The notes beneath the pieces were generated by a model, which saw only the letters and a list, made by a program, of their open reading frames with translations, was not told where the DNA came from and ran no database searches. A program made the position numbers and the translations under genes. Positions 16,199-25,719 of a DNA stretch of 38,516 nucleotides are shown piece after piece; positions within the stretch are counted from its first letter, which is position 1, and the number at the start of each line of letters is the position of its first letter. This DNA is from an uncultured Ectothiorhodospiraceae bacterium (lineage in GTDB: Bacteria > Pseudomonadota > Gammaproteobacteria > UBA6429 > Thiohalophilaceae): positions 1-38,516 of the forward strand of contig CAMYJG010000039.1 of the NCBI GenBank assembly GCA_947258695.1, written 5' to 3'.

Positions 16199-16678
16199 AT
16201 GAAAATATTACACACTTTAATGATTTCCATGTCGTTGTTACTAGTAGGAACGGGCCTATCAACAGCTGCCTTTGCCGATCATGGCAGACACCACATGATG
16301 GGTGGAATGATGGGGGGACATCACGGAAGTAAACATTGGAAAAAAAGCCTGACAGATGAGCAAAATACTAAGTTACTCGCCTTAAAGTTGGATAAGAAAA
16401 AAAAGCTCATTCCCCTGAAGCTAAAAATCAAGCAAGCCAAGGTCGAACTGGCGATGCTTATTACTAGCAATAGTCCAGGCAAAAGTGCTGTTAACAAAAA
16501 AATCAGTGCGATAGTCAAGCTCAAGCAGCAAAAGATGCAAATTAAAGCTAATCATAAAATTGCGGTGAGAAAGTTACTCAATGATGAGCAAAAAGTGCTG
16601 TTTGACCTTCATGTATTAAAAAAAGCCAAGAAGGGAAAACGTTATAAGCATGGCATGCACAAAAGGTATAATTACTAA
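16199..16678 (+). CDS. Spy/CpxP-like periplasmic LTXXQ-motif protein
   Basis: A 159-residue exported protein: signal peptide ending at AFA (24-26), then a His/Met-rich stretch (HGRHHMMGGMMGGHHG) that could bind metal, and a long basic helical region. LTDEQ at 51-55 and LNDEQ near 129 are the two LTXXQ motifs of the Spy/CpxP/ZraP group of periplasmic chaperones and metal-stress sensors. The helical part is very lysine-rich. Strong ribosome site CGGAGGAA. No two-component sensor is adjacent; a metal-stress role is an inference from composition and family. Confidence 0.75.
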   Translation: MKILHTLMISMSLLLVGTGLSTAAFADHGRHHMMGGMMGGHHGSKHWKKSLTDEQNTKLLALKLDKKKKLIPLKLKIKQAKVELAMLITSNSPGKSAVNKKISAIVKLKQQKMQIKANHKIAVRKLLNDEQKVLFDLHVLKKAKKGKRYKHGMHKRYNY

Positions 16679-17080: not shown

Positions 17081-17105
17081 AAAATCCCGCTGTAAGCGGG
17101 ATTTT
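17081..17105. terminator. Rho-independent terminator downstream of htpX
   Basis: Perfect 10-bp stem AAAATCCCGC / GCGGGATTTT with loop TGTAA, followed on the leftward strand by TATATT. It lies 16 bases after the htpX stop and separates htpX from acyP. Confidence 0.85.
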
Positions 17106-17120
17106 GTTAATACTATTATT

Positions 17121-17873
17121 TTATGACATTCGCTGGGCACGCGCTTCGAGCGCGGCAACTCTCGACTCAATAGGTGGGTGTGACGAGAACAGAGCCATAA
17201 TGCCACCTTTATCATTAATACCAAACGCCGCCATTTGTTCAGGTAAGGCTTCTGGTTCTACCTGGCCAAGACGTTTCAGTGCATTAATCATATTTTGATG
17301 ACCGGCTAAATCCGCACCACCGGTATCAGCAATATATTCGCGTTTTCTTGAGAAGAAAACCACAAAAGTATTCACCACGCCTTGAATCAGCGCCAACGTC
17401 ACCATATCACCATTCGCAACATGACTCATTTCATGGCCAACAACGGCTTCAATTTCACCTTGTGCCATATTATTTAAAAGCCCCTGGGATACGGCTACCA
17501 GTGCATTGTTTTTACTCGCGCCAGTTGCAAAGGCATTCATGTCTTGTGAGGGAAAAATCGCCACTTCTGGCATTTTAATACCCACAATCTGCGCCTGTTT
17601 TTCAACGGTACTGATTAACCATTTTTCCACATTGCTAGTAGGGTTAGTAATCACCACCGCACCGGTCATGCGTTTCGCCATCCACTTAGACATGAGTAAC
17701 GAAATAAACGAACCACCAAAACCAATCACACCAGAAAGGATAACCAGTGCCTGGATATTAAGATCAGAGCCATTCTCGGCTAAAATACTATCAACACCCA
17801 GTAACCTTAGGGTGATACTCAAAACGACCATAATTGCGATATTGGTCAATATAAATAACATAATTCGTTTCAT
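17121..17873 (-). CDS. htpX: HtpX-like membrane zinc protease, shortened
   Basis: Inner-membrane M48 metalloprotease that degrades damaged membrane proteins. Two N-terminal helices (about 3-25 and 42-62) are followed by the zinc site His147-Glu148-x-x-His151 in GHEMSH and the third ligand Glu179 in KREYIAD. The C-terminal [13 protein letters not shown] motif is normal. It has 250 residues; usual HtpX is about 290. The difference is almost all between the HExxH motif and the third ligand: only 28 residues separate His151 and Glu179, where E. coli HtpX has about 79. The missing part contains the third and fourth membrane helices. The frame is kept. ATG 17873 has AGG at correct spacing. Confidence 0.85.
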
Positions 17874-24147: not shown

Positions 24148-25719
24148 ATGCAACATAAGAATAACTCATATCGCCAGCCTCCCTTAATTCAGGCAATGTT
24201 AGAGCCAGGTTTCTATGATCATGCCGTGATTAACTGCCAGTTAATCGAAACACATATATCCTGGGTCATATTAACCGGTGATTATGTCTATAAAATTAAA
24301 AAACCCGTTAATTTAGGTTTTGTAGATTTCTCTACACTTGAAAAACGGAAATTTTATTGCGAGGAAGAACTACGCCTAAATCGTCGCCTGGCACCCGACA
24401 TATATTTAGATGTCATCCCGCTATCAGGTTCAGCAGAGTCCCCTGAGTTATTCGGTACAGAAAAAATATTCGAATATGCCGTTAAGATGCAACAATTTTC
24501 ACATGACATGCAACTTGACCGTGTATTAGCCAGGAATGAACTACAACCCGCTATGATTGATTCTTTTGCAAATTTAATTGCACAATTTCATCAACATGTT
24601 GAAATAGCGGATTCTACTTCTGATTTTGGAAATCCAGCAAAAATATATCAACCGGTAAAAGAAAACTTCATTCAAATTCGACAGCATATAAATGATAAAG
24701 CAATAATTAACTTGCTATCAAAAATTGAACAATGGTCTGAAGACGCATTTAGTGAAATAAAATATATTTTCCAGCAACGCAAGGAAAACGAATTTATTCG
24801 TGAGTGTCACGGTGACCTTCACCTTAGAAATCTGGCCTGGCATAAAAATAAACCACTTGCTTTTGATTGTCTTGAATTTAATGAAAATTTTCGATGGATT
24901 GATACTATAAGTGAAATCGCATTTTTGATTATGGATCTTGACGTGAATAATCAAGCAGAACTTGCACAGAATTTTTTAAATAAATACCTGGAATTAACCG
25001 GCGACTATGAAGGATGCACTGTATTACGTTTTTATCTTGTCTACCGGGCTATGGTACGAGCCAAGGTTGATGCCATCCGTGCAACTCAAAAAGGAATTTC
25101 TCAACAAGAGTCCGATCAAGCTAATAAAGAAATAGTTAATTACCTTCAACTTGCATTAACGTATACACAAAAAACTAAACCATTCATTATCATTACGCAC
25201 GGCATGTCTGCCTCGGGTAAAAGTACAATGACGCAACCATTACTTGAAAAACTGGGCGCGATTCGCATACGTGCTGATGTAGAACGAAAAAGATTATTTA
25301 ACATCAAACCAGAACAAAATTCCTATGCGAATTTTCAACAAGGTATTTATACCAGTCAAGCCACACGTGAAACCTATCTTAAACTTCTCAATTTGACAGA
25401 AAGTATTATTGACGCCGGGTTTCCCGTTATCGTCGATGCCACCTTTTCGAAAATAGAGCAGCGAACTTTATTCAAGGAAATTGCTTCAAAAAAACAGGTT
25501 CACTTTATTATATTGAATTTCATCACTTCAACAAAAACGCTAAAACAAAGAATACGTGACAGAAAAAATGATGTTTCAGATGCGGACATAACTGTTCTTG
25601 AAAACCAAATTAAAAACTGGCAAGCCATAGAAAAAGATGAAGAAAAATATTCCATTTCAATCAATACAGAAAAAGATTTAGATATTGAACAGTTACTTAC
25701 TCAGATAAAGCTGGATTAG
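24148..25719 (+). CDS. Aminoglycoside-phosphotransferase-like / P-loop kinase fusion protein
   Basis: A 523-residue two-domain cytoplasmic protein. The N-terminal half (about 10-330) has the protein-kinase-like fold of aminoglycoside phosphotransferases: a lysine-rich GDYVYKIKKPVNLGFVDF strand and a catalytic loop HGDLHLRN with His221-Asp223, followed by FDCLEFN. The C-terminal half begins with P-loop GMSASGKST (352-360) and resembles small gluconate/AMP kinases. This fusion (COG2187 with COG0645) is known in many proteobacteria without an established substrate. Drug resistance should not be assumed. Upstream, a perfect palindrome CTTGATCAAG lies in an AT-rich leader. Confidence 0.85.
   Translation: MQHKNNSYRQPPLIQAMLEPGFYDHAVINCQLIETHISWVILTGDYVYKIKKPVNLGFVDFSTLEKRKFYCEEELRLNRRLAPDIYLDVIPLSGSAESPELFGTEKIFEYAVKMQQFSHDMQLDRVLARNELQPAMIDSFANLIAQFHQHVEIADSTSDFGNPAKIYQPVKENFIQIRQHINDKAIINLLSKIEQWSEDAFSEIKYIFQQRKENEFIRECHGDLHLRNLAWHKNKPLAFDCLEFNENFRWIDTISEIAFLIMDLDVNNQAELAQNFLNKYLELTGDYEGCTVLRFYLVYRAMVRAKVDAIRATQKGISQQESDQANKEIVNYLQLALTYTQKTKPFIIITHGMSASGKSTMTQPLLEKLGAIRIRADVERKRLFNIKPEQNSYANFQQGIYTSQATRETYLKLLNLTESIIDAGFPVIVDATFSKIEQRTLFKEIASKKQVHFIILNFITSTKTLKQRIRDRKNDVSDADITVLENQIKNWQAIEKDEEKYSISINTEKDLDIEQLLTQIKLD

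Follow-up and report, generated by a model that had tools for sequence, protein, structure and literature searches.

The htpX gene of this locus raises the question of how a membrane protease came to lose the helices between two of its zinc-binding motifs, and whether the shortened product can still be a protease. The window, meaning the whole stretch of 38,516 nucleotides that was analysed, is contig 39 in a genome assembly of 164 contigs and 3.2 Mb, with a completeness of 95.13 and a contamination of 2.92. On its reverse strand, at 17121-17873, an unbroken reading frame encodes an HtpX of 250 amino acids. The protein scored 345.7 bits against NF003965 (protease HtpX; cut-off 245) and 107 bits against PF01435 (Peptidase_M48; cut-off 20.3), in both cases in two stretches, and Peptidase_M48 was its sole Pfam family at E<=0.001. 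HtpX belongs to class M48B. The features discussed below are collected in Table 1.

Table 1. Position of the features of the shortened htpX gene within the window.
Feature	Position	Strand	Basis
htpX CDS, short form, 250 aa	17121..17873	-	ORF; NF003965; PF01435
Hydrophobic segment 1, aa 4-22, kept	17808..17864	-	Kyte-Doolittle 19-residue mean 2.57
Hydrophobic segment 2, aa 43-61, kept	17691..17747	-	Kyte-Doolittle 19-residue mean 2.14
HEMSH zinc-binding/catalytic motif, aa 147-151	17421..17435	-	H, E and H invariant in HtpX alignment
Fused hydrophobic segment, aa 157-174	17352..17405	-	17 helix 3 residues and Phe174 (helix 4 end)
Deletion junction Phe173/Phe174	17352..17357	-	Border comparison; relatives' 135 nt absent
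Perfect 8+3+8 inverted repeat spanning the junction, probably a by-product	17342..17360	.	Sequence
ExxAD motif (EYIAD) including third zinc ligand Glu179	17325..17339	-	Sequence; HtpX alignment
HPx4R active-site plug, His232/Pro233/Arg238, kept	17160..17180	-	Sequence; motif known for M48
Terminator-like inverted repeat AAAATCCCGCT/AGCGGGATTTT past the htpX stop	17081..17105	.	Sequence

The missing 45 codons and the full-length relatives

Between the second histidine of HEMSH (His151) and Glu179, whose codon lies at 17337-17339 on the reverse strand, we counted 28 residues, exactly as an earlier note on this DNA had claimed. The same spacing is 73-76 in 37 HtpX rows from this and related genomes (31 distinct genes, six of them fetched twice), and 53-79, measured by motif search, across 31 M48 loci (30 taken from a Pfam search that covered 40 genomes, and the genome's own M48 protein of 636 aa; L138 and L033 are the same gene). 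The value of about 79 that the note had used for comparison occurs in other HtpX proteins (L135, L142), whereas the nearest relatives have 73. Seven close copies (two in G003 and one each in G001, G004, G005, G022 and G038) are 888 or 903 nt long versus 753 nt in the window, and relative to them exactly 135 nt, or 45 codons, are absent in frame. The borders are 135 nt apart in 7/7 of these copies, and in the protein alignment Phe173 and Phe174 flank a single 45-residue gap. The loss of some 150 bases proposed by the note is real, with this corrected size, and its description as an in-frame removal of helices 3 and 4 is nearly right: the remainder of helix 3, the loop and almost all of helix 4 are lost, but the first 17 residues of helix 3 (157-173) stay. 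Its placement of the join at FFSR-KRE did not hold, as comparison of the border codons puts the junction directly upstream of SR, the join reading VVF/FSRKRE.

Outside the gap, the window protein is 88-92% identical to related full-length HtpX, and it shares HExxH, ExxAD, HPx4R and the first two hydrophobic segments with the HtpX described by NF003965. In the long form, however, a hairpin of helix 3, loop and helix 4 separates HExxH from the glutamate at a spacing of 73, while in the window protein, with the 45 codons absent, there is one hydrophobic segment and a spacing of 28. The near-invariant R, G, D, G and L of the removed part are gone with it. As judged by sequence, the window protein is a derived HtpX by descent and a structurally incomplete member.

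The deletion itself is, on phylogenetic grounds, the derived state, because the window copy is nested among full-length copies. Maximum-likelihood analysis of 30 proteins placed it in a clade of eight rows (support 100/100), of which the seven others are full length; here the full-length G005 copy falls outside a group made up of the window copy and the six remaining ones, a split of moderate support (80/79). We searched 8/8 genomes of the genus and 40 of the family. Among these 40, an alignment unbroken over 1-250 was found only in the window's own genome; the other E. coli-type copies of the family align as two parts, one that ends at 178-184 and one that starts at 157 or later. Two copies at contig ends are exceptions. 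G002 gave the second piece only, which contains most of helix 4 and is therefore not a further deletion, and G026 gave a piece of 45 residues. Matches at E 1e-30 or better came from 19/40 family genomes, with only a distant paralog in G006, and an E. coli-type htpX (E<=1e-30) from 18/40 including the window's own, plus the contig-end piece in G026. By this distribution, in which several of the 40 genomes are incomplete, the family seems able to do without the E. coli-type htpX. The earlier note had named a clade of short HtpX as the alternative that would speak against a deletion; such a clade was found neither in the 40 family genomes nor when the genome collection was scanned with a pattern.

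Across the contigs of the window's own genome, the missing segment was not detected elsewhere, whether whole or as a stray fragment. Besides the window gene itself, the search matched a full-length paralog on C15 (30%) and, weakly, a site on C1 (E 0.05), with two stops and a CheW-like frame nearby by eye, which was taken as chance. Beyond htpX and its antisense frame, the relatives share few genes with the window around this locus.

The paralog (L002, G000 C15:69009-69884) is a second, full-length HtpX-like protein with a spacing of 73, 39% identical to the window protein over 6-170. Copies of its type (36-40%) are present in 7/7 other genomes of the genus, and it might cover for a lost HtpX. 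The htpX tree disagrees with taxonomy: the copies L009 (G038) and L008 (G022), which belong to another family and another genus, share 86 and 89% identity with the window copy over 1-183, and L015 (G007), from the same genus as the window, is 65% identical. Explanations for this conflict would be transfer, gene replacement or bin contamination. G003, also of this genus, has two E. coli-type htpX genes, on C4 and C138, whose DNA is 80% identical over 250 codons.

Borders of the deletion and state of the gene

In the relatives, the segment absent from the window is bordered by TFVxFLSR at the end of helix 3 and TIVMYFSR at the end of helix 4, and SR at both borders, as the earlier note had it, is seen in all seven close copies (FLSR, YFSR). 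The borders form an imperfect direct repeat of 24 nt, in which the in-register identities, with the relatives' sequences as stand-ins for the window's ancestral borders, are 18 in G003_C4, 17 in G022, 16 in G001, 15 in both G004 and G005, 12 in G038 and 11 in G003_C138. Ranked against all in-frame pairs of that gene with a distance of 60-300 nt (18,280 pairs; 18,680 in G005), the border pair came first of 18,280 in both G022 and G003_C4, and was within the top 2 in G001, the top 3 in G004 and the top 16 of 18,680 in G005, with ordinary identity in G038 (12/24, top 2.2%) and G003_C138 (11/24, top 4.2%). Over 33 nt, the longest exact in-register run was 2-7 nt in the seven relatives. Since the border repeat is the best in-frame pair in 2/7 relatives, slippage or recombination between the repeats likely caused the deletion. 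An in-frame deletion between short repeats, the origin suggested by the note, is well supported by the polarity and by the border repeat in 5/7 relatives.

The window's codons are of the first-border type through Phe173 (GTT TTC) and of the second-border type from Phe174 (TTC TCA AGA AAA), which places the exchange just upstream of SR. TCA AGA matches the second border in 5/7 relatives and AGA stands there in 6/7, while the arginine codon of the first border is CGN in 7/7.

The perfect 8+3+8 palindrome across the junction, which the note had linked to the deletion, is present but says little about the mechanism. Its left arm is mostly of first-border sequence, and its right arm AAGAAAAC already occurs at the second border in 4/7 relatives. 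The window has eight perfect inverted repeats of this kind versus a mean of 2.9 under a first-order Markov model (range 0-6, 20 runs), and given VFFSRKR and the fixed right arm, the left arm would arise from codon choice with a probability of about 0.09, based on codon frequencies in 11 window genes. The palindrome is probably an incidental by-product. The core of the terminator-like repeat past the htpX stop is included in the same inverted-repeat count; this repeat is absent from the listing of a consensus terminator scan.

Beyond the deletion, decay is not visible in the window htpX. Its protein breaks 0/68 columns that are invariant in 28 other HtpX proteins, the distant paralog L002 being excluded from the count, and, of 198 columns, two carry a change private to it (D to N and F to Y), compared with 0-11 in the seven nearest copies. 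Pairwise dN/dS of the window copy was 0.025-0.043 (five pairs with defined dS; two undefined), similar to the 0.010-0.041 of other pairs with defined dS, although dS is saturated in most pairs (1.57-3.08). The lack of visible decay fits a young deletion and kept function alike.

The zinc site and compact M48-like proteins

Hydropathy analysis of the window protein revealed segments at 4-22, 43-61 and 157-175, the third adjoining SRKRE; two relatives that were profiled additionally show the segment of helix 4 (198-216) and, in helix 3, a further peak that overlaps the first. In the long form, helix 4 would return the chain and thus place ExxAD on the side where HExxH lies. The single segment that is left would either put ExxAD across the membrane or, through residues 157-176, form a re-entrant or surface hairpin. 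The positive-inside rule describes a tendency of membrane topology, and applied to SRKR it would run against ExxAD lying across the membrane. Single-sequence AlphaFold prediction of the short protein yielded an unusable model (pLDDT 42.5, pTM 0.23), and the best PDB sequence match, 3cqb, spans only residues 62-165. Viral contigs supplied no HtpX suitable for an alignment in support of such a model.

We scanned the genome collection (84,980 species) for a pattern with 17-27 residues between NxD and ExxAD. The pattern accepts only CAT for the first histidine (for the long form, CAT finds 29/41 loci and CAC 10 more) and may omit records of the window's own genome. It returned 67 loci, 52 in frame, 13 out of frame and two with an internal stop, and by eye no HtpX-like stretch was found among the 52. 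Ten of the in-frame loci (L042, L049, L050, L057, L059, L062, L063, L082, L098 and L104) have HExxH, ExxAD at a spacing of 24-33 and then HPx4R. A Pfam scan covered 20 of the 52, L098 not among them, and nine exceeded the M48 cut-off of 20.3 bits (L043, L049, L053, L057, L060, L062, L084, L088 and L093), including three with the plug, namely L057 (34.4), L062 (31.7) and L049 (22.1). L045 exceeded the M78 cut-off; M78 stayed below it in L059 and just below it in L046, which has a helix-turn-helix, and M48 stayed below its own cut-off in L082. Seven of the 20, among them L042, L050, L063 and L104, had no Pfam match, and many of the other 32 in-frame loci look ImmA/IrrE-like. In L060, L084, L043 and L093 a second ExxAD lies at 50, 73, 84 and 61, respectively, and the short match is probably chance. 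The compact M48-like proteins L042, L049, L057, L059, L062, L063, L098 and L104 come from Phycisphaerales, Parabeggiatoa, Verrucomicrobia, Bacteroidetes and others.

The resemblance of these proteins to the window protein lies in HExxHxxNxD, ExxAD at 24-33 and HPx4R, all of which the latter also has. ExxAD stands at 28 and HP at 81 in the window protein, compared to 32-33 and 81-82 in L042, L059, L063, L098 and L104, and H147, E148, H151, N154, D156, E179, A182, D183, H232, P233 and R238 are invariant with six aligned compact proteins. The window protein has reached this shared layout by deletion, not by descent. A distinct difference is the linker between NxD and ExxAD, which is hydrophobic in the window protein (Kyte-Doolittle mean +1.03 over 22 residues) but hydrophilic in 11 short-spaced proteins of other genomes (-0.66 to -2.26; -0.14 in L053, which is without the plug).

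Modelled with nine other short-spaced rows, L104 is predicted to have a BepA-like core (pLDDT 79.1, pTM 0.81). In VIA-align, the model was most similar to BepA (Z 10.6, rmsd 3.4, 164 residues), followed by the M48 peptidase 3c37 (Z 9.5, rmsd 3.4, 159 residues); Ste24p (Z 6.8, rmsd 3.9, 158 residues) and ZMPSTE24 (Z 6.1, rmsd 4.3, 167 residues) ranked lower, with other zinc peptidases in between. This fold match comes from VIA-align, where a Z of about 10 can reflect a common arrangement in helical models, and Foldseek gave no match for the L104 model at E<=0.001 (best 0.34). As far as prediction tells, a spacing of about 28 would be compatible with an M48-like fold in compact proteins. The view that 28 falls outside the whole M48 range, as the 31 loci with 53-79 had implied, is overturned by the compact proteins with 24-33, so spacing alone cannot exclude a zinc site.

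Two described gluzincins help to place the window protein. According to PMC9834060, BlaR1 is a membrane gluzincin whose motifs H201ExxH and E242xxxD sit on re-entrant helices, and its structure superposes on those of ZMPSTE24 and Ste24p; its His205 and Glu242 are 37 apart, rather short like the 28 of the window protein. BlaR1 belongs to M56, to which the window protein, with its spacing of 28 and M48 as the only Pfam assignment, does not; both are gluzincins, and no closer relationship is claimed. For BepA, PMC7950410 gives the zinc ligands H136, H140 and E201 and the plug H246 with HPx4R, a motif described there for M48. BepA is a soluble, periplasmic M48 protein with a TPR domain and an H140-E201 spacing of 61, in contrast to 28 in the window protein, and its protease-dead mutant E137Q is described as dominant negative. 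A naturally shortened HtpX was not found in the available parts of the literature naming HtpX, by which its absence is not proven.

Readings of the locus and neighbouring genes

We consider the locus to hold, with a probability of roughly 0.57, a recent and impaired htpX allele that arose through a 135-bp deletion in one lineage. An ordinary E. coli-type htpX has lost these bases, likely by slippage or recombination between the helix 3 end (TFVxFLSR) and the helix 4 end (TIVMYFSR), as the borders suggest. Its protein retains helices 1 and 2 together with the active-site helix, both histidine ligands, Glu179 and the HPx4R plug. Between HExxH and ExxAD, an 18-residue hydrophobic stretch now stands in place of the two helices and the loop that took the chain into the membrane and back. 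This stretch would either cross the membrane once, taking Glu179 away from the zinc, or be forced to fold at the surface, and the product would therefore probably be an impaired or inactive protease. The deletion would be young enough that further decay is not yet visible. Impairment is likelier than a working minimal protein, in which the hydrophobic remainder would fold into a short hairpin, re-entrant or at the surface, with Glu179 completing the zinc site. Such a functional form is unlikely, though several points favour it: all ligands and the plug are kept, the loss is in frame, relaxed constraint is not seen (0/68 columns broken; dN/dS like that of relatives, with dS saturated), and BlaR1 offers a spacing of 37 on re-entrant helices (PMC9834060). 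The existence of ten compact loci with a spacing of 24-33 and HPx4R, three of them over the Pfam M48 cut-off, and the M48-like fold predicted for L104 by VIA-align raise the odds of a working protein and lower those of impairment. Yet the linkers of the compact proteins are hydrophilic and that of the window protein is hydrophobic, Foldseek did not reproduce the VIA-align match, whose Z of about 10 is possibly common in helical models, the near-invariant R, G, D, G and L are lost, and no other HtpX of the short form was found in the family genomes or the pattern scan. That a one-step deletion of 45 codons made a working minimal protease out of a four-helix membrane M48 protease appears doubtful to us. 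If it did, the helix 3-4 hairpin of HtpX would be dispensable for the zinc site, the short protein would tell how much of the membrane part the HtpX active site needs, and the membrane and compact forms of the fold would be linked by one mutation. If the protein does not work, it would be an example of how similarity between helix ends in a membrane protein yields a clean in-frame deletion, here in a family where htpX is often absent.

The deletion may also be confined to a minority of cells or to a chimeric read path, with the population carrying the full-length gene. The fragmented assembly (164 contigs) with the completeness and contamination given above, the look-alike borders, which favour read-level or PCR chimeras, and a comparison set of one genome per species leave room for this, but we regard it as quite improbable: the border repeats are imperfect, with exact runs of 2-7 nt that would generally be too short for a short-read graph to collapse them, the reading frame is unbroken, and the other contigs of the genome did not yield the missing piece. 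It is extremely improbable that the short HtpX is ancestral or clade-wide and never underwent a deletion. Short-spaced M48-like proteins exist, yet the six that were aligned are only 16-27% identical to the window protein, every measured HtpX row is long, with the window copy standing among them, and the polarity contradicts such an origin.

As for the surroundings of the gene, a Metal_resist protein (PF13801) is encoded at 16199-16678; about 440 bp, which include an acylphosphatase gene, separate it from the htpX 3' end. In E. coli, the targets of Cpx include HtpX as well as Spy/CpxP-like proteins. Elsewhere in the window, a protein of 523 aa (24148-25719) combines an APH phosphotransferase domain (PF01636, 128-288) with AAA_33 (348-490).
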